A DNA stretch of 64,000 nt. It comes from Sulfurovum sp. TSL1. GTDB taxonomy: Bacteria; Campylobacterota; Campylobacteria; Campylobacterales; Sulfurovaceae. The notes under the pieces are model-generated. The model was not told the origin of the DNA. It saw only the letters and a list, made by a program, of their open reading frames with translations, and did not search any database. Position numbers and translations under genes: made by a program. Shown piece after piece: positions 22,733 through 45,158 of this stretch; positions within the stretch are counted from its first letter, which is position 1, and every line of letters starts with the position of its first letter. The stretch is from the NCBI RefSeq assembly GCF_019972135.1, contig NZ_BPFI01000001.1, positions 1,347,106-1,411,105 of the forward strand, given 5' to 3'.

Positions 22733-22798
22733 ATGAATCATTATATTTACAGTTCGTCACATTATTCTATAACAAAACTAAGGCAATACACAAGATGA
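22733..22798 (+). CDS. 21-codon leader overlapping the zeta-toxin start
   Basis: ATG 22733 has a good site (GAGGAG, 6 bp upstream) and encodes a 21-residue peptide beginning MNHYIYSSSHYSITKLRQY. Its TGA overlaps the ATG of the next gene (ATGA), so the two would be translationally coupled. It may be a real leader peptide or the N-terminal stub of a lost antitoxin. No longer upstream gene is present. Confidence 0.4.
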   Translation: MNHYIYSSSHYSITKLRQYTR

Positions 22799-23496
22799 GT
22801 GACGAAGAATTAATACAATCTATTGAAGATTTAATAAAGCTCGGCAGCGAGGCAACAAGCGAAGAGATAGAAAAGAATGCGCTTGAATTTATAGAGTCAC
22901 AAAAACATCATTTGCCCAATAAGTTTTTATCCTATAGAAACACCCATAAAAAAGCTATATTGATGGCAGGCGGCTCTGGTGCCGGGAAAAGTGAGACTGC
23001 CATAAGTATTTCTGAAAGTGAAAAAATAGATGTAGTCGATACGGATGCTATCCGAAAAATCTGTCCTTTGTATAGTGGGAAAAACTCCCACTTGTTTCAA
23101 AAAGCTTCTTCAAAAGGTGTTTCAATTTTAATGAATTATCTTTTCAAACATAACCTCTCTTTTATTCTTGACAGAAACTTTGCAAACCATTATATTCAAA
23201 AAAGAAACATAAAAAGAGCGATCAACAGAGGATATGCTATTGAAATAATATTTGTATACAGAGATAAAAATGTAGCCAAAGCCTACACAAAACAAAGAGA
23301 ACAAATTGAGGGAAGAATGGTTCCAGAGAGTGTGTTTGAGACAAAATACGAAAACTCGATCAAGACTACAAAAAAAATATTGGATGAATTTGACGGCATT
23401 TCCTTCAGATACATAGACTTGTCATCACGGGAAATTGTCAAAAATGAAAAAGGGGTAGAAAAGCTCTCAAAACTATACGATACACTGAAACTATAA
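22795..23496 (+). CDS. Zeta-toxin-like P-loop kinase
   Basis: A 233-residue protein with a zeta-toxin/nucleotide-kinase fold: Walker A AGGSGAGKSE (58-67), DTDAIRK strand-helix, FILDRNFAN and an arginine-rich lid (RDKNVAKAYTKQREQ, EGRMVP). Zeta toxins phosphorylate UDP-N-acetylglucosamine and block wall synthesis; other members are less well defined. No epsilon antitoxin is recognisable beside it, only the 21-codon overlapping frame. It is the only intact gene in the outermost 1.1-kb block of the island, flanked by tRNA remnants at 22.47 and 23.61 kb. Toxin role is inferred from the family. Confidence 0.82.
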   Translation: MSDEELIQSIEDLIKLGSEATSEEIEKNALEFIESQKHHLPNKFLSYRNTHKKAILMAGGSGAGKSETAISISESEKIDVVDTDAIRKICPLYSGKNSHLFQKASSKGVSILMNYLFKHNLSFILDRNFANHYIQKRNIKRAINRGYAIEIIFVYRDKNVAKAYTKQREQIEGRMVPESVFETKYENSIKTTKKILDEFDGISFRYIDLSSREIVKNEKGVEKLSKLYDTLKL

Positions 23497-23597: not shown

Positions 23598-23669
23598 TTT
23601 TAGTGGGGACTTGAACCCTCGACCTCCGGCTTATGAGTAAGCTAGACAAACTGGCAATGTCCTACTAAA
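23598..23669 (-). pseudogene. Chimeric tRNA-like remnant with a 32-bp core identical to the tRNA at 45.1 kb
   Basis: Bases 23606-23637 are identical to 45095-45126, covering the anticodon (CAU), variable and T-loop part of the tRNA. The flanks differ, yet TTTAGTG (23599-23605) and TACTAAA (23663-23669) can pair 6 of 7 as a new acceptor stem, and GACA/TGTC can form a D-stem. The T-stem is broken (CCCCA instead of CCCTC) and no CCA follows. I read it as a recombined attachment remnant, perhaps a decayed element-borne tRNA. Confidence 0.6.
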
Positions 23670-23822: not shown

Positions 23823-23857
23823 AAAACCTTATAAAGTTATATATTTTATAAGGTTTT
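23823..23857 (-). terminator. Terminator of the paralogue array
   Basis: A perfect 13-bp stem, AAAACCTTATAAA (23823-23835) and TTTATAAGGTTTT (23845-23857), overlaps the stop codon of the last paralogue. It is AT-rich but flanked by T/A runs on both sides. A near copy occurs at 27795-27826. Confidence 0.7.
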
Positions 23858-24368
23858 ACTCCTCATATTCACTTACGTTAAAATCGCAGGCTTCTTTTCT
23901 CGCTTTACATCGTGGTATAGTATAACTATCGCCACTCAACAAAGAATCATATTGTATGTAAGCCTCCATCCTGGCGCTTGTATTAAAAATTATTTTTCTA
24001 AAATATTTGTCATTAATTCTATTATTTATAATAGGCTGTTCTATACAAACTCTAAAATAACTTTCACAATCAAGAGGAGCGACTACTTGATTATGTATTT
24101 CTTTCGCCTTGCTTGGATCTTTCAGCATTTTTTGTTTTGCTCTAGCTCCCTGCATAGCAATATCTATATGTATAGGATGTTTGTCTTTATACGTCTTGTA
24201 TATCCAACGCTCAACATCATCCCTCACACCATTATTGTTGGAGTCTATTCCAAGAAGTGTTGAATTATTAATTTTAGGGTCTGGTTCAGGTGGAAGAATA
24301 TGTCCGTTTATGGTTTCGGAAAAAGTATTTGAAGTTAAAAGTAATAATACGAGTCCAAGTCTTTTCAT
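23856..24368 (-). CDS. Secreted calcium-loop-type paralogue 7 (last in array)
   Basis: A 170-residue exported protein, seventh and last of a tandem family. A short signal peptide (MKRLGLVLLLLTSNTFS) is followed by the family core ETINGHILPPEPDP, then a D-x-N-x-N-G-x-x-D-D-x-E loop (GIDSNNNGVRDDVERWIYKT) like EF-hand/thrombospondin-3 calcium sites, then a conserved helix (HPIHIDIAMQGARAKQK). The second half is variable and ends with LLSGDSYTIPRC...CDFNVSEYEE. Two Cys in the tail are probably paired. It starts 3 bp after the previous stop. Function unknown; closest to paralogue 2 of the array in its C-terminal half (LDCES/LDCEL, INDKYFRKI/INNKYFREK). Confidence 0.82.
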   Translation of the reverse strand: MKRLGLVLLLLTSNTFSETINGHILPPEPDPKINNSTLLGIDSNNNGVRDDVERWIYKTYKDKHPIHIDIAMQGARAKQKMLKDPSKAKEIHNQVVAPLDCESYFRVCIEQPIINNRINDKYFRKIIFNTSARMEAYIQYDSLLSGDSYTIPRCKARKEACDFNVSEYEE

Positions 24369-24371
24369 GAT

Positions 24372-24899
24372 TTATTCCTCGTATTTGCTTGTGTTAAAAT
24401 CACATTGTTCCTTCATCTCGCTAATCTCAGGAAGGGCATAGCTATCACCACTAAGCAATCTATCGTACTGCAAATACACATCACTTCTTGCTTTAGTGTT
24501 AAAATATTTACTTTTTACAGGAACATCAATTCTTTCATTAACTAATACTGGTTGCTTAAAAAACTCCACATAATTTTGATAATATGAAGCACAAAAATAA
24601 GGACTATTGACTTTTAACCTTATCTCTTTAGCCCTCTCAGGAGTCTCCAATACTTTTTTATAAGCTCTTGCAGCCTGCATAGCAATATCTATATGTATAG
24701 GATGTTTGTCTTTATACGTCTTGTATATCCACCTCTCCACATCATCCCTTACACCATTATTGTTCGTGTCTATTCCAAGAAGTGTTGAATTATTAATTTT
24801 AGGGTCTGGTTCAGGTGGTAGAGTGTGTTCATTTATGGTTTCGGAAAAACTTGCAAGTGGGTATAACCATAAAAGAAATAAAAATAATAGCTTTTTCAT
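24372..24899 (-). CDS. Secreted calcium-loop-type paralogue 6
   Basis: A 175-residue member with signal peptide (MKKLLFLFLLWLYPLASFS), the INEHTLPPEPDP segment, the loop GIDTNNNGVRDDVERWIYKT, the AMQAARAYKKVLETPERAKEI helix and the tail LLSGDSYALP...CDFNTSKYEE. The middle (about 95-140) differs from its neighbours. Its core DNA is very similar to paralogue 5, consistent with recent duplication. It starts 3 bp after the preceding stop, so the array is one operon. Confidence 0.82.
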   Translation of the reverse strand: MKKLLFLFLLWLYPLASFSETINEHTLPPEPDPKINNSTLLGIDTNNNGVRDDVERWIYKTYKDKHPIHIDIAMQAARAYKKVLETPERAKEIRLKVNSPYFCASYYQNYVEFFKQPVLVNERIDVPVKSKYFNTKARSDVYLQYDRLLSGDSYALPEISEMKEQCDFNTSKYEE

Positions 24900-24902
24900 C
24901 TT

Positions 24903-25433
24903 TTATTTCTTGTCGTATTTAGTTGTATTAAAATCACAATATGCTTTTAAGGTTCTAATTTTTGGTAAAGCATAACTATCTCCACTCAAGAGACTATCAT
25001 ATTGCCAATACATATCTTTTCTTTCTTTAGTATCAAAGTAGATATTAAAAATAGAAGGATTAATATCTTTTTTCATCAAAAGTGGCTCATTGAAAAATTC
25101 TGCATATTCTTTATAATACCAATTACAATGTATCGATGAATTAACCTTGCTTCTAATCTCTTTAGCTCTTTCTGGTGTTTCCAGCACCTTTTTGTATCCT
25201 CTTGCAGCCTGCATAGCAATATCTATATGTATAGGATGCCTATCTTTATAGGTCATATATATCCAACGCTCTACATCATCCCTCACACCATTATTGTTAG
25301 AGTCTACTCCAAGAAGTGTAGAGTTATTGATTTTAGGGTCTGGTTTTGGTGGCAGAGTGTGCCCGTTTATCGTTTCAGTAAAACTTACATGTGGGTATGA
25401 CCATATAAGGAATAAAAATAGTAGCTTTTTCAT
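24903..25433 (-). CDS. Secreted calcium-loop-type paralogue 5
   Basis: A 176-residue member: signal peptide (MKKLLFLFLIWSYPHVSFT), INGHTLPPKPDP, loop GVDSNNNGVRDDVERWIYMT, AMQAARGYKKVLETPERAKEI, and tail LLSGDSYALPKI...CDFNTTKYDKK. The close match to paralogue 6 across signal peptide, core and tail, with a variable middle, shows the usual pattern of this array. It overlaps the previous gene's end by 4 bp (ATGA). Confidence 0.82.
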   Translation of the reverse strand: MKKLLFLFLIWSYPHVSFTETINGHTLPPKPDPKINNSTLLGVDSNNNGVRDDVERWIYMTYKDRHPIHIDIAMQAARGYKKVLETPERAKEIRSKVNSSIHCNWYYKEYAEFFNEPLLMKKDINPSIFNIYFDTKERKDMYWQYDSLLSGDSYALPKIRTLKAYCDFNTTKYDKK

Positions 25434-26011
25434 AATTTCTCAGACATCTTTATATACGGTGTTGTATTAAAATCACATCCTTCTATCCAACTTTCATCAG
25501 GCCAAGAACTCTCAAAAACCATTCCACTCAAATTTTGATTATATTCTCCATAAGCTCTTGCTCTTTGTGCAGTATTGAACTGAACTTCTTCTCGCTCTCT
25601 AAGCTCTTTTATCTCAGTTTCAGAATCTCTAAGAATCAGTGGTTTTCTACCAAATGAATTTGCCCATTCTGTTGTAAATACATATTGACATAGAGAAGAT
25701 TTTTCAGCTTCTTTATTTCTTTCCCTGGCCTGACTTGGATCCTGAATAATATAACGAAATGCTCTTGCCTCCTGCATTTTCAATGGTATCATAATTGGAT
25801 GGTCATTCTTATATCTATTATATATCCATCTTTCCACATCATCCCTCACTCCATTATTGTTGGAGTCTATTCCAAGTAAAGTAGAGTTATTGATTTTTGG
25901 ATCTGGTTCAGGTGGTAAAGTATGTCCATTTATCATAGTGGGGGTTTGTTCCTCAGCATTCAATGAAAATGTTCTTAAAATAAATATCGCAATAAGGATT
26001 ATCTTTTTCAT
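25430..26011 (-). CDS. Secreted calcium-loop-type paralogue 4
   Basis: A 193-residue, more diverged member. The signal peptide (MKKIILIAIFILRTFSLNA) is followed by a short insertion (EEQTPTM) before INGHTLPPEPDP; the loop GIDSNNNGVRDDVERWIYNR is intact, and the helix reads HPIMIPLKMQEARAFRYI. The second half is distinct (WANSFGRKPLILRDSETEIK) and the tail is NLSGMVFESSWPDES...CDFNTTPYIK. Coupled at both ends by 4-bp overlaps. Confidence 0.8.
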   Translation of the reverse strand: MKKIILIAIFILRTFSLNAEEQTPTMINGHTLPPEPDPKINNSTLLGIDSNNNGVRDDVERWIYNRYKNDHPIMIPLKMQEARAFRYIIQDPSQARERNKEAEKSSLCQYVFTTEWANSFGRKPLILRDSETEIKELREREEVQFNTAQRARAYGEYNQNLSGMVFESSWPDESWIEGCDFNTTPYIKMSEKL

Positions 26012-26658
26012 TTAAGTTCCTTTAACAACTCTTTAACCTCTTGACTACAGAGCATAAGTCCTACTTCATCTGTCGGAACAGAATAAACACCTCCACTCAA
26101 ATAATAATTATATTTAGCATATGCTCTGGCTCTTTGAATTGTATTAAAAAGTATTTTTATTAATCCATTTCCTTCCTTAAATAAAATTTTTTCAATTACA
26201 GCATATTCCTTATTATTGTAAACTCTTTTCTTTAGAAGTTTTACTGATATCTCACAGTCAGTTGCATTATTTAAAAACTTCATTGTATCCTTGGCTTTTT
26301 CAGGTTCCTGAATAATAATCTGTGCTGCTCTAGCTTCTTGCATTGCAATTGCTCTTACGATAGGATGATACGGTATTGCATTCTCTTCACATACTTCTCG
26401 TCCAGCTTTAAAGATACTTCCATCATCTAAAACAACATCATAAGGCTCTTGATGACAAGGCACGTACTCATCATATGTCTCATATATCCAACGCTCCACA
26501 TCATCCCTCACACCATTATTATTTGAATCGATACCAAGAAGTGTAGAGTTATTGATCTTAGGGTCTGGTTCAGGTGGTAGAGTGTGTCCGTTTATGGTTT
26601 CGGAAAAACTTACTATCGGGTATAGTCCTATGAGCAGTATTAAAAATATTTTCTTCAT
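26008..26658 (-). CDS. Secreted calcium-loop-type paralogue 3 (longest)
   Basis: A 216-residue member with the family signal peptide, INGHTLPPEPDP and GIDSNNNGVRDDVERWIYET. It has an insertion of about 35 residues between the loop and the AMQEARAAQIIIQEPEKAKD helix, containing two Cys and an acidic turn (VPCHQEPYDVVLDDG), and lacks the usual CDFNT tail, ending instead in LMLCSQEVKELLKELK. These changes suggest different binding specificity on a shared scaffold. The upstream gene ends 4 bp before its start. Confidence 0.8.
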   Translation of the reverse strand: MKKIFLILLIGLYPIVSFSETINGHTLPPEPDPKINNSTLLGIDSNNNGVRDDVERWIYETYDEYVPCHQEPYDVVLDDGSIFKAGREVCEENAIPYHPIVRAIAMQEARAAQIIIQEPEKAKDTMKFLNNATDCEISVKLLKKRVYNNKEYAVIEKILFKEGNGLIKILFNTIQRARAYAKYNYYLSGGVYSVPTDEVGLMLCSQEVKELLKELK

Positions 26659-26661
26659 ATC

Positions 26662-27195
26662 TTAATCCTCATATTTAGTTGTATTGAAGTCACAAAGTTG
26701 TTTGCGCTCACTGCACCAAGGAATAGTATAGCTATCACCACTAAGTAAAGTATCATATTGCCAGTATTTTTCTAATCTTTTTCCCGTATTAAAATAGATT
26801 TTTTCCCTAAAATATTTATTGTTTATTCTAGTATTTTCATCTATAAACTGAAGCTTTCTTCCATCACTACATCTTCTATAATACAATTCACAATCAAGAG
26901 GAGCATTCACTTCATCATGAATCTCCTTAGCCCTCTCAGGCGTCTCAAGCACTTTTTTGTATCCTCTTGCGGCCTGCATAGCGATATCCATATGGATAGG
27001 ATGCTTATCTTTATATGTCTCATATATCCAACGCTCCACATCATCCCTAACACCATTATTGTTAGAATCAATTCCAAGAAGTGTCGAGTTGTTGATTGTA
27101 GGATCTGGTTCATGTGGAAGAATGTGTCCATTTATGGTTTCGGAAAAACTCAAATGAGGATATACACATATAAGGAATAAAAAGACTTTTTTCAT
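26662..27195 (-). CDS. Secreted calcium-loop-type paralogue 2
   Basis: A 177-residue member: signal peptide (MKKVFLFLICVYPHLSFS), INGHILPHEPDP, loop GIDSNNNGVRDDVERWIYET, AMQAARGYKKVLETPERAKEI, and tail LLSGDSYTIPWC...CDFNTTKYED. Its second half (LDCELYYRRCSDG, INNKYFREKIYFNTGKR) is shared with paralogue 7, not with the adjacent copies, so copies have been shuffled as well as duplicated. 4-bp overlap with paralogue 1. Confidence 0.82.
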   Translation of the reverse strand: MKKVFLFLICVYPHLSFSETINGHILPHEPDPTINNSTLLGIDSNNNGVRDDVERWIYETYKDKHPIHMDIAMQAARGYKKVLETPERAKEIHDEVNAPLDCELYYRRCSDGRKLQFIDENTRINNKYFREKIYFNTGKRLEKYWQYDTLLSGDSYTIPWCSERKQLCDFNTTKYED

Positions 27196-27731
27196 TTACG
27201 TTTCTTTAATAATGTATCTACATCAAATTCACATTGTGCTTTAAGTTTAGATATTTTTGTTGCAGGAAATACTCCTCCACTTAATATTTGTTCATGAAGT
27301 AAATAGCCTCTTATCCTTTCTTTAGTATTTAGTTGAATAGATTTAAATCTTTTTGAGGTTAATATATATTCGTTTTTATTCAATAAAAGTGGATCACCTA
27401 AATATTTTGCGAAAACTCTAAAATAAGACTCACAATCTAAGGCCGCATCCATTATTTTATATGTCTCCCAAGCATTTTCAGGGTGTTCTATCACTGCATT
27501 ATAGGCTCTTGCCACCTGAAAGCCTATCTCTATGGTAATCTTCTCTTTACTGTATGTCTTGATGATGTAGCGTTCCACATCATCTCTCACACCATTATTG
27601 TTAGAATCAATTCCCAAAAGTGTTGAGTTATTGATTTTAGGATCTGGTTCAGGTGGGAGTTCATAACCGTTAATTGTTTCCGAAAATAGGAATGTACTCA
27701 GTATGGAAAGTAAAACTAGAATATATTTCAT
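27192..27731 (-). CDS. Secreted calcium-loop-type paralogue 1 (first in array)
   Basis: A 179-residue member and probably the oldest or most diverged: signal peptide (MKYILVLLSILSTFLFS), INGYELPPEPDP, loop GIDSNNNGVRDDVERYIIKT, helix ITIEIGFQVARAYNAVIEHPENA, and tail QILSGGVFPATKI...CEFDVDTLLKKRK. It heads the operon: upstream lie an AGGGAGAAG ribosome site and a good -10 (TATAAT, 27764-27759 minus). Beyond that lies a deletion remnant of a further copy. Confidence 0.82.
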   Translation of the reverse strand: MKYILVLLSILSTFLFSETINGYELPPEPDPKINNSTLLGIDSNNNGVRDDVERYIIKTYSKEKITIEIGFQVARAYNAVIEHPENAWETYKIMDAALDCESYFRVFAKYLGDPLLLNKNEYILTSKRFKSIQLNTKERIRGYLLHEQILSGGVFPATKISKLKAQCEFDVDTLLKKRK

Positions 27732-27794: not shown

Positions 27795-27826
27795 AACCTT
27801 ATAAAGTTATATAATTTTATAAGGTT
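27795..27826 (-). terminator. Copy of the array terminator
   Basis: AACCTTATAAA (27795-27805) and TTTATAAGGTT (27816-27826) form an 11-bp perfect stem followed on the plus side by T6. The sequence is nearly the same as the terminator at the far end of the array (23823-23857), so it was duplicated with the end of a paralogue. It would end transcription of the lipoprotein gene upstream. Confidence 0.65.
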
Positions 27827-27873
27827 TTTTCCTCCCCACATTTGCTTGTGTCAAATTCAGAAAATAATTTCAT
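27817..27873 (-). pseudogene. Collapsed eighth paralogue: start joined to tail
   Basis: A minus-strand mini-frame of 18 codons, MKLFSEFDTSKCGEEKTL, starts 2 bp after the upstream lipoprotein stop. MKLF matches the paralogues' first codons and SEFDTSK..EE their last (CDFNTSKYEE), and the copied terminator follows. The simplest reading is a full paralogue reduced by one internal deletion; loss of its stop lets it read into the terminator. Confidence 0.65.
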
Positions 27874-27875
27874 TT

Positions 27876-29015
27876 CTACAGTTTTTGAAATTCAAGTATA
27901 TATACCCCATGTCTTTTATATGGAATAGTAAATCCTTTTGTACCTTTATATTCATATTCCTCATAAGAAACTTCATCCCAAAAGTCCCTTCCAATAAAAA
28001 TTGGTTCTGAATATTTTTGAAACTCTAAACCTAAATTTCTCCTTTCCTCGTAACTATCTATGTAGTCAGGAAATTTCACGTCCAACTCCAAAGGCATATT
28101 ATCAATCATAAATACTGTTCTTTCTACTGAATCTTCAGGAACCTTATTCTTTATCTTTCTCTTCCATACATCTGCATACTCTACAGATCGAAGCTGCATA
28201 TTAGAGATATCCTCACCATTGTGCCCTTTTAACTTCATACCATAAAGATTAGAGTTTTTATCTATGACTATGAGTTCATTATTTACTATCTTAGTGGGTA
28301 TAATGGTAGTTTTTGGTACTTTAATGAGAAAGTTTACTTCTCCTTTATTTCCTTTAAAATCAGTTGCTTTCATTGTTATAGTATGAATTTTCTCTTCCAT
28401 ATCCATAGGTACATCCCATAGTATGTCTACTCCATCTATAATCCCAATCAGATCCTCACCTAAATCTGAACGCCTCACGATCATCATTCCATTAGGAGGA
28501 TCAATAAGTTCATATTTTAAATCTATCTTTTTTGATAATACTCTAAAATATATAGATACACCTCGGATTGCTCCTCGTCTTTGTTGTAAAGGAGGTTCTA
28601 TAAGCTTAATTTTGTTATTTTGATGTATTACTATATCATCAGGATTGTAGCCATTATAATTTTGTACTTTTATTTTAATTTCATTAGAAATGACATTATT
28701 CAAAGAAGCGCTTACAGTAAAGTTACCCTCTAATGCCATAAAATGATCATAATAAAATCTAATTCTTTTACTTGTCTTATTCCAAGTCACTAAATCTGTT
28801 ACTTCTTCACTATTGCCATCACTATACGTAGCCATTACCTTTATAGGTGCTTTTATATGGTGTTCATCTTTGTTTTTCACAAACCTTGTTTGTTCTGTAC
28901 TAAGTAACAAGCTTTCAAGTTTTGGTTTTTCTATTTTTGGTATTTCCTCATTTGCATAGCATCCATTAAAGACCAATAGTAAAACAAACATTGCATTTTG
29001 TATAAAATTAAACAC
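27876..29015 (-). CDS. Lipoprotein with bacterial Ig-like (Big2) domain
   Basis: A 379-residue lipoprotein: lipobox LVFNGC (acylated Cys18), then a Big2-type immunoglobulin-like domain (about 30-118; IKVMATYSDGNSEEVTDLVTW, LEGNFTVSASLNN), a second beta-rich domain (about 135-235; VSIYFRVLSKKIDLKYELIDPPNG) and a C-terminal part (about 240-379) of unknown fold. Ig-like domains of this sort are found in surface and adhesion proteins. It is upstream of, and in the same direction as, the seven secreted paralogues, with the collapsed copy and a terminator between, so it may be regulated separately although it belongs to the same 5.7-kb block. Confidence 0.72.
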   Translation of the reverse strand: MFNFIQNAMFVLLLVFNGCYANEEIPKIEKPKLESLLLSTEQTRFVKNKDEHHIKAPIKVMATYSDGNSEEVTDLVTWNKTSKRIRFYYDHFMALEGNFTVSASLNNVISNEIKIKVQNYNGYNPDDIVIHQNNKIKLIEPPLQQRRGAIRGVSIYFRVLSKKIDLKYELIDPPNGMMIVRRSDLGEDLIGIIDGVDILWDVPMDMEEKIHTITMKATDFKGNKGEVNFLIKVPKTTIIPTKIVNNELIVIDKNSNLYGMKLKGHNGEDISNMQLRSVEYADVWKRKIKNKVPEDSVERTVFMIDNMPLELDVKFPDYIDSYEERRNLGLEFQKYSEPIFIGRDFWDEVSYEEYEYKGTKGFTIPYKRHGVYILEFQKL

Positions 29016-29296: not shown

Positions 29297-29316
29297 TGGT
29301 GTCAAGAGAGGGACTT
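29297..29316 (-). repeat. tRNA 3'-end direct repeat (inner attachment remnant)
   Basis: TGGTGTCAAGAGAGGGACTT is identical for 20 bp to 45082-45101, the 3' end of the intact tRNA including encoded CCA. To the left, aagtaaataaggggattgtt (29266-29285) resembles cagtaaatcaggggtttgtt left of the 23.6-kb remnant. This is the expected distal att copy for the integrase next to the tRNA, giving an inner element of about 15.8 kb. Confidence 0.78.
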
Positions 29317-30179: not shown

Positions 30180-31199
30180 CTAATTTTCGGTCTGATATTG
30201 ATTTGATGTGATTTGAACTTCATCTACACTGTAAGTCTTCGTTTCAATTGGTTCAAGGTCATCATCTTTAAAAATCGCATAGTTATCACCATCACCCACT
30301 GAACTTTTATATATAACACCATCAAAACCACAATGCTTAATGAATTCACATAAATATTGGCTTGATAAATATTCCAAGTGTGCTTCTCGTGGTAAGATAG
30401 GCTTCGATAGTTCCTCTCCTAAATGACATAGGTAATCTAAATCTTTGAACATTTGATTTAATCCATCATCATCAAAAGTAAATGGTGATATGGTTTCTCT
30501 TGGATCTCGTAAATCAGCAAGATTAAGATTACCCTTTACTTCAAATTTAGCTACTGTAATTTTATCACCTTTATGAGGTCTTATTTCTGCAATTGCTGTT
30601 TTTGTATTTGATGCAGTATATAAGTATGGAATTCCAATCGGATTAGCTCTTCCAGCTGACGAATATCTTTCGGGAGGTTTTCCCATTTCTTTAAGAGGAA
30701 TTTCTTCTATATCTTCATTAACTCTTGAACGATATAGATACTTTGGAATGTATTCATTGGAAATAATAAGATTAGTCAAGAGACCTTCTAAATGTTCCTT
30801 ATTGGGAGCTTTTAAAGGAAAATATCGATTGTAATGTTTAAGTTCTTTTTTAAATTCTTGCCAATTAGAAATCTTTGTAGTATCACCATTTTCTCTTGCT
30901 TGAAAATTTTTGTAGATTTTTATTTCTAAAATACTCTCTACAAGCAATAATGCTATCGCATCATCCATATGTGTAAAAAGCTTCCAATCATTATTAATTA
31001 CCTCAATAATTGTGTTCCCACTTTCTACCTCTTCATACAAATCAAATATTGGCTGAAAGTAATCATTTAGTAATGAGGCATCAATTAAACTAACATTTTG
31101 GGATTTACAAAATTCACACGTTCCAATAGTCTCAGATTGTTGAATAATAACATCACTCATAAATTTATCATTAAAGCAATGAGTGCAACAATTGTTCAT
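30180..31199 (-). CDS. RES-domain protein with N-terminal zinc-ribbon-like motif
   Basis: A 339-residue protein. The N terminus has paired cysteines (CCTHC ... CEFC), then a helical region (about 45-145) like the HEPN/RES N-terminal domain, then a RES domain (about 155-325; LYRSRV, GRANPIGIPYLYTASNTKTAIAEIRPH, YLSSQYLCEFIKHCGFDGVIYKSS). RES-domain toxins degrade NAD+. The R, E and S residues that name the family are present in this order. It overlaps the sce7725-type gene by 1 bp, so it belongs to a three-gene unit. I infer a toxin or effector of a defence system rather than a classical toxin-antitoxin pair, as no small antitoxin adjoins it. Confidence 0.78.
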   Translation of the reverse strand: MNNCCTHCFNDKFMSDVIIQQSETIGTCEFCKSQNVSLIDASLLNDYFQPIFDLYEEVESGNTIIEVINNDWKLFTHMDDAIALLLVESILEIKIYKNFQARENGDTTKISNWQEFKKELKHYNRYFPLKAPNKEHLEGLLTNLIISNEYIPKYLYRSRVNEDIEEIPLKEMGKPPERYSSAGRANPIGIPYLYTASNTKTAIAEIRPHKGDKITVAKFEVKGNLNLADLRDPRETISPFTFDDDGLNQMFKDLDYLCHLGEELSKPILPREAHLEYLSSQYLCEFIKHCGFDGVIYKSSVGDGDNYAIFKDDDLEPIETKTYSVDEVQITSNQYQTEN

Positions 31200-32134
31200 T
31201 ATTGCCTACTTAAAAAATCTGCAAGAACTTCAATATGATGCTGCATCGACAACTTCTTCACATATCCAAGTCCTGGAAAGTGCCCTTCATTATAGAATTT
31301 TTTATATATGGCATAAGCATTACTTTTATAAATTTGGTCATCATTATCTACTCGTTCTACCATTTTATATAATGCTTCCGCAAACTTACCTGCCGGGTCG
31401 CTTGGTGTTTCATTTGTATCTGATTTAAAATGACATATATTCATTTTTTCATCTTCATTTATATAAGTCAAATGAATTGCCACAGCATATGCTGGGCCTC
31501 CACTTTCAGAGTATTCATTACCAACTATAAGAAAATCACCGAAACCTTGAAGGTCCATCTCTGTATATGTTAAATGTAGTTCAGAAAACTTCTCATCATC
31601 AGGATAATCTTTATTTCTATTTCGCTTAAAGCCATCTTTTAATAATACTCTCTCAACACCTTCTTTTTTAAAAGCTCTTCGATATAAAATTTCTTCATCA
31701 ATAAATATATGCTTTTTTACATTATCAAACTGATTTACAAGTGCTGCTAATTCTTTTTCTTTTGGATAACCATTATGGATAAAAGCAATAGTTTTATCCA
31801 TAAATTTATTTAAAAAACTTTCAATATATATCAAACTACTATTAGCATTTACAATACACCCAATACAGTAGTTGTCATAGTCAGATAGTATATCATTAAT
31901 AATATTTTCTTCAATTGGAAGTGGATTATTTTTAAAATCACCCTCACTTGGATTAATAACTAAAACAAATGAAGCCGAATGCTCTTTTAATTTATTAATC
32001 GCCTTGCTTAAAGAAGTCAAATTCTCCTTTACTGGCTCAATAATTGGAACCATAGAAGCATCTTTGATTAACTTCGCATTCTCCCTAAGCAGAATTAGCT
32101 CGTATTGTTTTCCCCTCAGATACGGATGATACAT
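31199..32134 (-). CDS. sce7725-family protein
   Basis: A 311-residue cytoplasmic protein beginning MYHPYLRGKQYELILLRENA, the typical opening of the sce7725 family (also called beta protein), whose function is not established. The chain alternates strands and helices like a TIM-barrel-type fold (PIIEPVKEN, VLVINPSEGD, GCIVNANS, IAFIHNGYPK, HIFIDE). It ends at a 1-bp overlap with the RES gene and begins 11 bp after the sce7726-type gene. sce7725 and sce7726 genes are known to travel together, and this pair keeps that order. Confidence 0.8.
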   Translation of the reverse strand: MYHPYLRGKQYELILLRENAKLIKDASMVPIIEPVKENLTSLSKAINKLKEHSASFVLVINPSEGDFKNNPLPIEENIINDILSDYDNYCIGCIVNANSSLIYIESFLNKFMDKTIAFIHNGYPKEKELAALVNQFDNVKKHIFIDEEILYRRAFKKEGVERVLLKDGFKRNRNKDYPDDEKFSELHLTYTEMDLQGFGDFLIVGNEYSESGGPAYAVAIHLTYINEDEKMNICHFKSDTNETPSDPAGKFAEALYKMVERVDNDDQIYKSNAYAIYKKFYNEGHFPGLGYVKKLSMQHHIEVLADFLSRQ

Positions 32135-32145
32135 TGACTTTTCCC

Positions 32146-33015
32146 TTATATAAACAGCTTTTTAACTTTTGTATTTAAAGCCTTTAAGAATTCTTGCTGT
32201 TGCTGAATGTTTAAATCTTCCTCTATTATAGCTATTTTTAAACTATCAGGAAACTTTTTGATGTTTTCTACCAATTTTGTATGATTTTTTCGGGCTTTCA
32301 ATGCTTTTAAGACTTCTTGATGAGCCTGTTCTACTGGCAAAGTAATGAATAATTCCTTTGAAGCAGAAAATATTTTTGTGTTTGGAACATCTGGTATATA
32401 TCCGAAATTATTTTGAATAACTTTTAAATACTCATCTTTTCTAAGCATATTAAACAATGCTTCTTTATCAAGTTTATTCAATCTTGATTTGGCTTTACGA
32501 ATTGTTTTCAAAGTATATCTATCTGTTAATACAATAATACCTATGTCATCATCTACCAATGTCTTGATAGTATCTACTTTTGTTTCTACTGATACGATAT
32601 TCACATATTCAAAAACTTTCTTATAGTTTTCAATTTGCTTTGGAAGTCTTTCAAAAGTATCCAAGTCAGTCTTTATCTCATAGATATGAGAAGTCCCGTT
32701 AAATATAACTATATCTGCTTTTGAAGTTTCAACCCTCAATTCTGTAAATAAAGAAGAAGACTTTATTGAATGCCTTCCAATAAGAATTTTTTTGGCAATA
32801 GCATTTTTAAAAACATACTCATTACGATAGTTTTTTAATAGTTGTTTATATGATTTTTCAAATAACTCTCCAAGAGTAGTATTTTGAGAAATTAAATCAC
32901 CTAAACCTAACTCTTTAACAACATTAGACAATCTATCTGTATTCTGATTTATGTTGATAAAACTATTGAGTATCTTTGGAGTAAAAAGATAAGAAAGGGA
33001 TGTATTATATTCCAT
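32146..33015 (-). CDS. sce7726-family protein, PD-(D/E)XK nuclease-like
   Basis: A 289-residue protein. I use ATG 33015 (MEYNTSLSYLF), preceded by AGGAGG at 7 bp; the longer frame to 33108 has no ribosome site. Residues around 115-150 contain KADIVIFNGTSHIYEIKTD, with Asp and E-x-K spaced as in PD-(D/E)XK nucleases, followed by a helix with Q-x-x-x-Y (QIENYKKVF). The family is usually found with sce7725, as here. Together with the RES gene it suggests nuclease plus NAD-degrading effector, but activity is inferred from motif only. Confidence 0.78.
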   Translation of the reverse strand: MEYNTSLSYLFTPKILNSFININQNTDRLSNVVKELGLGDLISQNTTLGELFEKSYKQLLKNYRNEYVFKNAIAKKILIGRHSIKSSSLFTELRVETSKADIVIFNGTSHIYEIKTDLDTFERLPKQIENYKKVFEYVNIVSVETKVDTIKTLVDDDIGIIVLTDRYTLKTIRKAKSRLNKLDKEALFNMLRKDEYLKVIQNNFGYIPDVPNTKIFSASKELFITLPVEQAHQEVLKALKARKNHTKLVENIKKFPDSLKIAIIEEDLNIQQQQEFLKALNTKVKKLFI

Positions 33016-33132
33016 TTTACATACCTCCTGTCTCTTTTTTTTGAGTATTTTAACATTATTTTTCAAAATAGCATAAACCAAAACTTTACTTAAAATAAAA
33101 TTTAACAAGGCTGTTAATAACCTCTACAAAAG

Positions 33133-43127: not shown

Positions 43128-44960
43128 TTAAGTTTTAAAGATTTTTTTTGCAGTATTTATAATTTTTGAGAAATCAATGCTGCCAAATTCCATTTTTTCA
43201 ATGACCTTTTGTAAATCTTTGACATCATAGTTTTCACCGTGCCTACTATTTCCGTATCGTCCAAAAGTTAGATTTCCTTTTAAACTATGTGCCGATAGAT
43301 ATTTTATCTTAGTCTCACCGATACCCTCATAACTTCTTAGCTTGCTTGAAAGTAAATGTTTAAATGAATGAAAATCTATCTGAAACTTATCATTTTCAAG
43401 ATAGTTCTTATCCACGAACTGCGGTTTGAGCTTTTCATTGAAATCATCCCCGAAATCTTTCCAATAACCACTATCGGGGTAGTAGTTTAGATTACTGAAT
43501 ATCTGTTTTTCACCTTTTTTCTTTTGGGCTTCAACCAATCCCAAAAAACCGCATTCAATAATTTTTGAATGAATAGGAATAAGCCTTTTGGAATTCTCGG
43601 TTTTTACCCTTTTATCTTCTGATGACGGATAGATACTATAACAGTAGATACCGTCCTTTTCAATAATGCTATCCGTTGAGAGTTGAGCTATCTCGTTTCC
43701 TCTAAATCCCTGAAACATTGCAATGAGGGGAATAAATACTCTTTCAGGTCTATGTTTAAAATTATCTTCAAGTTCTTCATTGAACCAAGTCGTTTTAGCA
43801 ATCATATCACTAAGTTCTTTTTGTTCAAATCTCACTCTCTCAGATTTCTGTTTAATTTTTTTGAGTTTTTCGCTGTTAAGCCTATTAGTATCAAGATGAC
43901 CTTTCTCAATCATATGCTCTAAAAATGCCGATACTGTTGTCATTCTATCGCTTATTGATTTATCTGAAAGCATATCAAGTTTAGAAACAGTAGATAGCCC
44001 GTCATCAAAAATTTTCATTATTCGTTCAGTGAGTTCATCAACACCCATATCGGCAATCTCTTCTCTACTAAACTCTTCATATATCTTTCTATGGCTTCTT
44101 TCTGATATTAAATTTTTAAGCACCCCCGCATATGCTTCGTATGTCTCTTTCTCAATATCATATAGATACTCTTGATTACAAAAATATACAAAAAAATCTA
44201 TCTCTTTTTGTAATGAACTTTTAAAACTTTTTTCAGATGCAAAGTCTTTTCTCTTGCTGTTTAGATATTCCTCTTTAAGTTCATAAGCCGTCTTTTCATA
44301 ATATCTTACTTCGTGTTTTTCTTTTTTCTGTTCCATCCGACTTTGAACAGGTATCTCTTGTTGCGGTTGTGTCTGAGCTGATGTATCTTCAACTTCGTCT
44401 GCTAAGAAATAAGGCTTTACTTTTCTATTTTCACTTCTTTGGGCATCGCAAGACACAAGTTCATATTCTGCTTTCAATAGCTCTGTTCTAAATATATGTT
44501 GGTCTAAATGCTTAATCTCTTCAAAATTAATATTTGACCTTTGTAATATCGAATTTGCCAACTCTTTGGCATTATCACTATCAACATCGTATATTTCGGC
44601 ATCAATCCTTTTTAATGCCTTTTCGGCTGCCTTTTTATGTGCTCCATCCCTTTTTTTACCCTTTTTGGTTATGTAAGCAAAGGCTTCCCGCCTTAATCTT
44701 CCAAGCCCATTATAATCGGTCCAAGCTTCTCTGACATAGTTTTTTATAACTTGTGTAATAAAATCCAATTGTTCAGCTTCATTCATATCCTCTCCCTTAC
44801 AAAATTCAAAAAGTATATTTATTTTGGGCATTATTGTAGCTAAAATAAATTGTGCCGTTTCTAAATTACCGGTCCTTAAAGATGTAGAGAAGTTCCGTTT
44901 TGTAAGAGGGATTTTCCGTTTAAAGAAGTATGTTCCGTGTTCTAAATAGAGATATTTCAT
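43128..44960 (-). CDS. Large tyrosine recombinase (island integrase)
   Basis: A 610-residue site-specific recombinase. The N terminus (LYLEHGTYFFKRKIPLTKRN) is of the DUF6538 type; a Glu/Lys-rich middle and a SAM-like core-binding domain follow; the catalytic domain has Arg in GFRGNEIAQL (about residue 417), HSFKHLLSSKL (His about 533) and the Tyr in FGRYGN (about 568). In the H-x-x-R box the Arg is Lys (HSFK). The gene lies 121 bp from the tRNA 3' end and is oriented away from it, the usual place for an integrase acting on that tRNA. It is probably responsible for the inner 15.8-kb element ending at 29.3 kb. Confidence 0.9.
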   Translation of the reverse strand: MKYLYLEHGTYFFKRKIPLTKRNFSTSLRTGNLETAQFILATIMPKINILFEFCKGEDMNEAEQLDFITQVIKNYVREAWTDYNGLGRLRREAFAYITKKGKKRDGAHKKAAEKALKRIDAEIYDVDSDNAKELANSILQRSNINFEEIKHLDQHIFRTELLKAEYELVSCDAQRSENRKVKPYFLADEVEDTSAQTQPQQEIPVQSRMEQKKEKHEVRYYEKTAYELKEEYLNSKRKDFASEKSFKSSLQKEIDFFVYFCNQEYLYDIEKETYEAYAGVLKNLISERSHRKIYEEFSREEIADMGVDELTERIMKIFDDGLSTVSKLDMLSDKSISDRMTTVSAFLEHMIEKGHLDTNRLNSEKLKKIKQKSERVRFEQKELSDMIAKTTWFNEELEDNFKHRPERVFIPLIAMFQGFRGNEIAQLSTDSIIEKDGIYCYSIYPSSEDKRVKTENSKRLIPIHSKIIECGFLGLVEAQKKKGEKQIFSNLNYYPDSGYWKDFGDDFNEKLKPQFVDKNYLENDKFQIDFHSFKHLLSSKLRSYEGIGETKIKYLSAHSLKGNLTFGRYGNSRHGENYDVKDLQKVIEKMEFGSIDFSKIINTAKKIFKT

Positions 44961-45081: not shown

Positions 45082-45158
45082 TGGTGTCAAGAGAGGGACT
45101 TGAACCCTCGACCTCCGGCTTATGAGACCAGCGCTCTAACCAGCTGAGCTACCTTGAC
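45082..45158 (-). tRNA. tRNA with CAU anticodon (tRNA-Met, or Ile2)
   Basis: A complete 77-nt cloverleaf: acceptor GTCAAGG/TCTTGAC, D-arm with AGCTCAGCTGGTTAGAGC, anticodon loop CTCATAA (CAU, complement of 45122-45124), T-arm GAGGGTTCAAGTCCCTC, discriminator A and encoded CCA (45084-45082). A CAU anticodon means elongator Met, or Ile2 if the C is lysidylated; I cannot decide between them. It is the attachment gene of the island and is intact. Confidence 0.95.

Follow-up and report, generated by a model that had tools for sequence, protein, structure and literature searches.

An array of probable orphan immunity genes on a tRNA-Met island of Sulfurovum sp. TSL1

The window analysed here is a 64,000-bp stretch of the Sulfurovum sp. 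TSL1 genome (contig NZ_BPFI01000001.1, positions 1,347,106 to 1,411,105, forward strand). At positions 23856..27731 it carries, on the minus strand, an array of seven tandem genes for small proteins that share a nearly fixed N-terminal half and differ in their C-terminal half. Our analysis indicates that these are probably orphan immunity genes, that is, collected antidotes to hydrolases of neighbouring bacteria. Sequence comparisons establish the observations behind this proposal: genes of the same family are linked to the gene of a secreted hydrolase, the co-occurrence of the two is one-sided, many linked hydrolases are cut short, hydrolase leaders are fused to array genes, the copies are scattered in the family tree, and purifying selection acts on them. 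Together with structural models, they also reveal a fixed scaffold with a variable face. If the proposal is right, both the immunity family and the candidate antibacterial enzyme family would be new, their linkage would extend from Campylobacterota to ultrasmall bacteria of the candidate phyla radiation (CPR), and orphan-immunity arrays would also exist outside gut Bacteroidales and Vibrio.

Results

Organization of the array

The seven open reading frames (ORFs) are intact, 170-216 amino acids (aa) long, and transcribed from position 27731 towards 23856: g1 (27192..27731, 179 aa), g2 (26662..27195, 177 aa), g3 (26008..26658, 216 aa), g4 (25430..26011, 193 aa), g5 (24903..25433, 176 aa), g6 (24372..24899, 175 aa) and g7 (23856..24368, 170 aa). 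The tiny gaps and overlaps between genes reported in a preliminary description of this DNA are borne out: g1/g2, g3/g4 and g4/g5 overlap by 4 bp and the remaining junctions are 3-bp gaps. Identity among the seven copies is 63-86% in the N halves and 21-62% in the C halves. The core, LPPEPDPKINNSTLLGIDSNNNGVRDDVER, is almost fixed across the array, the exceptions being PHEPDP in g2 and PPKPDP in g5; the AMQAAR helix, first described as part of this constant region, varies (FQVAR, KMQEAR, AMQGAR). The SGDSY...CDFN tail, described as usual, is complete in g2, g5, g6 and g7 only.

The same description held that g2 and g7 have a common variable half and took this as a sign of segment exchange. Their C halves are indeed mutual nearest neighbours within the array (58/94 positions), whereas the N half of g7 is nearest to that of g6. 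Exchange is supported by the AU test, which rejects the C-half tree on the N data (p = 0.004) and the N-half tree on the C data (p = 1.6e-5). Swapping within the array is not, however, the main source of diversity, since the closest C half of most copies sits in another genome.

The TSL1 genome (2.35 Mb in 6 contigs, 99.94% complete, 3.45% contamination) contains 11 family genes in all. Besides the array there is a solo gene at C1:1707283, two genes lie at C1:1458-2500 and a further one at C3:966-1499. No other member of the Sulfurovaceae, the bacterial family concerned, has more than four such genes.

A secreted hydrolase is encoded next to family genes

Clustering of the genes that neighbour family members produced one dominant cluster, found at 43 of 74 loci and made up of exported proteins with a common N domain; as a rule the clustered neighbour is the next gene on the same strand. 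This domain can be aligned over about 300 residues, with N32, G33, D81, S134-Q135-G136, D186 and H264 invariant. By its signature, a [GA]HSQG elbow with conserved Ser, Asp and His, it is a serine hydrolase. No curated family in Pfam or among PDB sequences matches it convincingly: a few members have weak Pfam matches to DUF900, DUF676, DUF3089 and lipase families, and among PDB sequences the closest is a putative lipase with an E value of 0.25. The C termini are diverse (cadherin, laminin-G-like, Big_5, LVIVD, NosD-like), and nearly all of the hydrolases have Sec-type N termini, as judged by eye.

A hydrolase gene follows 77 of the 136 family domains that have room downstream, mostly at -9 to +10 bp, and such pairs occur in Campylobacterota, Adler-, Nomura- and Gracilibacteria, Bacteriovorax, Limnohabitans and a gammaproteobacterium. 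Seen from the hydrolase, the linkage is nearly complete: a family domain directly precedes 73 of 74 hydrolase starts, with the lone exception having one 527 bp upstream, and among loci retrieved via the hydrolase itself the figure is 27 of 28. Among 175 Sulfurovaceae genomes, 30 have both genes, two the hydrolase only, 15 the family only and 128 neither (Fisher p = 2.6e-20), so that the family occurs without the hydrolase in 15 of 45 family-bearing genomes. This one-sided dependence suggests an antidote-toxin relation. Moreover, truncation within a contig affects 24 of the hydrolases that follow family genes, as against 33 with a full N domain. A profile search of the whole six-contig TSL1 assembly, which has 11 family genes, gave no hydrolase match.

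Distances between variable halves follow those between the adjoining hydrolases in 34 Campylobacterota pairs (r = 0.75, Mantel p = 5e-4). For the core the correlation is 0.14 (partial 0.09, p = 0.08), and this low value does not stem from low variability, since r is still 0.60 when the variable half is reduced to its 37 least variable columns. The pattern is compatible with co-evolution of the variable half and the hydrolase at an interface.

Origin and maintenance of the array copies

The signal peptides of g2, g3, g5 and g6 are of hydrolase type, with best scores of 47-68 against hydrolase leaders and 32-35 against family leaders; the g6 leader, MKKLLFLFLLWLYPLASF, may be compared with that of the L014 hydrolase, MKKILLLILIWLYPILGF. 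By contrast, g7 and the solo genes have family-type leaders (55-75 against family, 39-45 against hydrolase), and the leaders of g1 and g4 are not assignable to either class by alignment score. At the DNA level, gapless alignments of g3, g5 and g6 to the leader of the L014 hydrolase extend through the whole signal peptide (z about 7). The hydrolase leaders, and the fact that the fused-leader junctions are spaced like family-hydrolase junctions, suggest that the array was once a row of immunity-hydrolase pairs and lost the hydrolase bodies by deletion.

The 11 TSL1 copies are scattered over many parts of a tree of 127 domains. The C half of g1 is 67% identical to that of L035, its next relative being L022, which has a cut-short hydrolase behind it, as against 35% to its best sister. 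Corresponding values are 52% to hydrolase-linked L040 versus 31% for g3, 69% to hydrolase-linked L114 versus 36% for c1a, and 52% to hydrolase-linked L304 and L057 versus 27% for c1b; for g5, the best sister and the best outside gene are about equally close. The g3 gene also has an insertion of about 33 aa in common with L040, L049, L051 and L063. The C halves of g2 and g7 are nearest to L012 and L013, respectively, each with a cut hydrolase behind it, and that of g4 is the most divergent. Tandem duplication in situ as the sole source of the array is rejected by the tree for most copies.

Among the 11 copies the core differs by a mean of 7.5% of amino acids and the C half by 67%. As many as 37% of the codons for unchanged core residues differ, which argues that the core is held by purifying selection and has not been copied recently. 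Comparison of the variable halves of array genes with their nearest relatives gave pN values of 0.13-0.31 and pS values of 0.53-0.79, with synonymous sites near saturation, indicating that these halves too are under purifying selection. Neutral decay of the variable halves, contemplated in the preliminary description, is rejected on account of the low pN relative to pS and of the predicted fold of g4, which is intact.

A family without named relatives

The impression that the proteins belong to no named family agrees with our searches, in which Pfam, NCBIfam, PHROGs, PADLOC and PDB sequences gave no convincing match and the core matched no known family with a defined function. A Pfam scan of 115 family members yielded one chance match only. 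The AlphaFold2 model of g6 is mostly helical (pLDDT 96.6, pTM 0.91), and g4 was modelled with the same helix order (pLDDT 93.7). Foldseek searches with the g6 model found no relative in PDB or BFVD (best E 2.0 and 2.2, TM-scores to about 0.3). Literature searches returned nothing relevant to the sequence motifs of the family or to Sulfurovum together with integrons.

GTDB genomes contain 79 family loci, mostly in Campylobacterota, with others in Adler-, Nomura- and Gracilibacteria, Bacteriovorax, Limnohabitans and one gammaproteobacterium. The gene is also present on 12 plasmids, including one of Sulfurovum mangrovi and eight of Acinetobacter. A phage origin was rejected, no relative being found in IMG/VR or in phage records. 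Judging from their N termini, family proteins are probably exported to the periplasm. Many relatives have Ig-like and cadherin-like parts fused N-terminally to the family domain, and several CPR family proteins (Gracili-, Adler- and Nomurabacteria) have an N-terminal membrane anchor. The family-hydrolase pair itself is found in these three groups (L070, L071, L072, L074, L077, L078, L079), an occurrence of interest for ultrasmall episymbionts. In the Helicobacteraceae metagenome-assembled genomes L073, L081 and L083, two tandem family domains are present per protein, with no hydrolase linked.

In the alignment of 115 domains, G23, D25, D33 and R119 (numbering of mature g6) are invariant, and L8, P9, P12, T20, L21, N27, N29, G30, R32, D34, V35 and E36 nearly so, as are C84, N115, T116 and C147. 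The two near-invariant cysteines, C84 and C147, suggest a disulfide. Variable residues cluster at 67-113 and 137-156. Calcium loops of EF-hands and dockerins have the spacing D-x-N-x-N-G-x-x-D-x-x-E, and the 12-residue EF-hand loop has a hydrophobic residue at position 8. The family loop resembles them in its spacing and invariant Asp residues, with a fit at positions 1, 3, 5, 6, 9 and 12, but fails the full consensus by having Arg at position 8; it also differs in being single and in lacking a Pfam match. Binding of calcium by the loop is possible.

Discussion

Proposed function of the array

In the reading that we favour, each array gene would encode a small exported helical protein with a fixed N-terminal scaffold (the PPEPDP segment, the EF-hand-like loop and the first helix) and a C half specific for a single variant of the secreted serine hydrolase, which it would recognise and block; the hydrolase would act as an effector or toxin. 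The linkage, the asymmetry of occurrence and the co-variation all point to such one-to-one recognition. Elsewhere, the family gene directly upstream of the hydrolase would protect the producer. Strings of immunity-hydrolase pairs would then lose hydrolase bodies to give the array, and in g2, g3, g5 and g6 the immunity core that followed a lost hydrolase would have taken over its start and signal peptide as leader. The array would now be a palindrome-bounded block on the tRNA-Met island (see below). Since TSL1 has 11 family genes of different origin and no detected hydrolase, the genome would be protected against several competitor hydrolase variants, and the presence of orphan copies of multiple origin suggests that the benefit is gained against neighbours. 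Among the functions that the preliminary description had put forward, immunity-protein arrays are thus favoured through the linked hydrolase. Receptor decoys and surface recognition sets find no support, the constant association being with the hydrolase.

Several points weigh against this proposal. Toxicity, binding and protection are deduced from sequence. The hydrolase's own Sec-type signal and long adhesion-type C termini leave its route into a competitor's periplasm unexplained, and no secretion system was seen linked at the loci, genes of the type VI secretion system (T6SS) not having been searched for. A chaperone or an inhibitor of the producer's own enzyme would be linked and co-vary equally well. 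As the variable half abuts the hydrolase gene, linkage together with recombination inside the core may give the same correlation. The hydrolase profile was built from copies adjoining family genes and favours the finding of linked ones. Finally, the evidence for absence of the hydrolase from TSL1 is strong but not absolute, given the 6 contigs and the contamination estimate.

Lipase-specific foldases are helical exported or anchored proteins encoded beside a secreted lipase, and family members likewise are helical exported or anchored proteins encoded beside a lipase-like enzyme gene. A role as steric chaperone or export partner of the hydrolase, with array copies serving other hydrolases in trans, would fit the tight linkage and co-variation, the scarcity of hydrolases without a family gene and the foldase-like membrane anchor of CPR relatives. 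We nonetheless consider it unlikely, since there would be little reason to keep a chaperone in the absence of its enzyme, and still less to collect it, yet 15 genomes keep the family without any hydrolase and TSL1 has 11 divergent, intact copies. In addition, 24 hydrolases behind a family gene are cut short, foldases are not known from orphan arrays, the gene lies upstream of the enzyme, and the foldase family itself is excluded as a match since no Pfam family matches. The protein might also be exported to inhibit or regulate the hydrolase of the producer itself, without an interbacterial role. Such a function would be at home next to an exported lipase in need of periplasmic restraint, and the truncation of many adjoining hydrolases could be read the same way, orphans being leftovers after hydrolase loss. 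Leftovers should decay, however, while all 11 TSL1 copies are intact, under purifying selection and from different lineages, so that they look gathered rather than left behind; this explanation seems to us quite improbable. The Ig-like and cadherin-like parts of many relatives, along with the adhesion-type modules of linked hydrolases, could speak for a surface recognition or adhesion repertoire, or for receptor decoys, diversified by recombination. The array genes have neither an anchor nor an adhesion part, and the family is constantly associated with the hydrolase and not with surface systems, making such a role very improbable indeed.

Relation to known immunity arrays

The nearest parallel to orphan immunity genes as proposed here is found in the recombinase-associated acquired interbacterial defence (rAID) clusters and the AID islands of Bacteroidales, which are co-oriented short genes on a mobile element, about 30-62% identical to effector-linked immunity genes, that protect against T6SS effectors in genomes without a cognate effector (PMC12247911). 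The Sulfurovum array resembles them in having seven co-oriented short genes on a mobile island, relatives that are hydrolase-linked in 77 domains, limited identity in the variable half (39-69%) to whichever hydrolase-linked gene is nearest, and no cognate hydrolase found in its own genome. rAID clusters have a tyrosine recombinase immediately upstream and conserved motifs between genes (PMC12247911). In the Sulfurovum array, by contrast, no recombinase adjoins, an integrase-like ORF with Pfam matches below the cut-off lying 15 kb away at the other island end, and there is no intergenic motif, only 3-bp gaps or 4-bp overlaps, with palindromes at the two ends alone. Assignment to rAID thus fails on the recombinase and the motifs, while the likeness in function would be unaffected. 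Other differences from rAID and AID clusters are an immunity family without a known fold, a Sec-type serine hydrolase as partner in place of a known T6SS effector, another phylum, and the leader of a lost hydrolase in four of the seven array copies. The origin of such arrays is an open question in the rAID literature (PMC12247911); the leader fusions would provide a readable route to them, namely loss of toxin bodies between immunity genes.

At T6SS loci of Vibrio cholerae, immunity genes are kept while effectors are replaced or truncated, leaving strings of orphan immunity genes and truncated effectors (PMC8189183). Retention of immunity genes without their effector would be common to both systems. 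The present family differs in that no T6SS linkage was seen (within the limits given above), the immunity gene is upstream of the enzyme and the TSL1 genome holds orphans only. T6SS lipase effectors and their periplasmic immunity proteins (Tle/Tli) combine a T6SS-delivered hydrolase of GxSxG type with its antidote (PMC13133936). The [GA]HSQG elbow, which is of this type, the conserved Asp and His, and the exported partner encoded alongside recall this arrangement. The hydrolase described here, unlike Tle proteins, has its own Sec-type signal (by eye) and C termini of cadherin, laminin-G-like, LVIVD or NosD-like type; it matches no curated family, and no linkage to VgrG or PAAR was seen.

Palindrome-bounded cassettes

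Solo family genes have in common a 150-bp upstream flank that contains a palindrome. The palindrome pattern was found in 31 of 76 genomes of the genus and in none with a reversed control. Two site types can be distinguished: S, CCTTATAAAATATGTTAGATTATAAGG, which usually has about 84 bp of conserved sequence ahead of it, and E, CCTTATAAAATATATAAnTTTATAAGG, which stands at the end of each gene unit. In four genomes, 33 E sites come within 12 kb of an S, and every one of them is downstream of it and on its strand (18 clusters). Cassette loci comprise L120-L124, L179-L180 and L256-L275. Cargo differs between genomes at the same locus, as before yraN in G090, G097 and G066 and behind pcm in G000, G097 and G137; moreover, at one locus G090 has an S without E, whereas in G097 a 177-aa gene stands there between S and E. 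An S site is also present on the S. mangrovi plasmid that carries a family gene. S and E sites were not found in viral contigs.

Directly after g7 lies a perfect E-type palindrome, CCTTATAAAATATATAACTTTATAAGG (23827..23853, minus strand), which with its flanks forms a 13-bp hairpin and is also terminator-like. A pattern scan located an E-like palindrome ahead of the array (27797..27824). The window has 4 matches to the two palindromes on both strands, versus 0.02 expected. No E site occurs inside the array, which is therefore one block.

An integron-like capture system without an integron integrase is possible in this genus. An integron integrase was rejected as the mover, TIGR02249 having no match above cut-off in the TSL1 genome, where only Xer-like and phage-type ORFs were found; a Y1/RAYT transposase was rejected as well, being absent from the site-rich, near-complete genomes G090, G097, G137 and G139. 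An attC-like fold of the 122-nt start region was not borne out, with z values of only -1.6 and -0.5 for its two strands. E sites resemble bidirectional terminators, and they may be just that, with homologous recombination moving the cargo. It is conceivable, if rather doubtful, that the two lines of observation belong together. One would be a new effector-immunity type, spread over Campylobacterota, Proteobacteria and CPR bacteria, in which a helical immunity protein of new fold is encoded upstream of an adhesive, Sec-exported serine hydrolase; the other would be an IntI-less cassette platform that captures and shuffles such orphan immunity genes.

The tRNA-Met island and neighbouring genes

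The array sits at the distal end of a 21.5-kb island (23606-45126) bounded by 32-bp repeats. The proximal repeat (45095..45126, plus strand) lies inside tRNA-Met (45082-45158); the distal, attachment-type repeat (23606..23637, plus strand; blastn E 6e-11), an exact copy of this tRNA-Met sequence, adjoins the array. The island also contains a type III restriction-modification pair, a RES-domain protein, ArdA and the probable integrase (43128..44960, minus strand, 610 aa), whose DUF6538 and Phage_int_SAM_5 matches are weak and below cut-off. A 20-bp partial copy of the repeat at 29297-29316 suggests two stacked elements, with the array in the distal one.

Upstream of the array, at about 27828..27864 on the minus strand, the tail of an eighth family gene is recognisable as an 11-residue relic (SEFDTSKCGEE, cf. 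CDFNTSKYEE). It is preceded by the gene of a 379-aa exported protein (27876..29015, minus strand) with a weak bacterial Ig-like match. Just beyond the island end is a zeta-toxin-like ORF (22795-23496; Pfam E 2.4e-26). Within the island, at 30180-33108, a RES-domain ORF is followed by ORFs 31199-32134 and 32146-33108, which have no Pfam match, beside the type III Res gene; these three ORFs may form a defence or toxin-antitoxin set.

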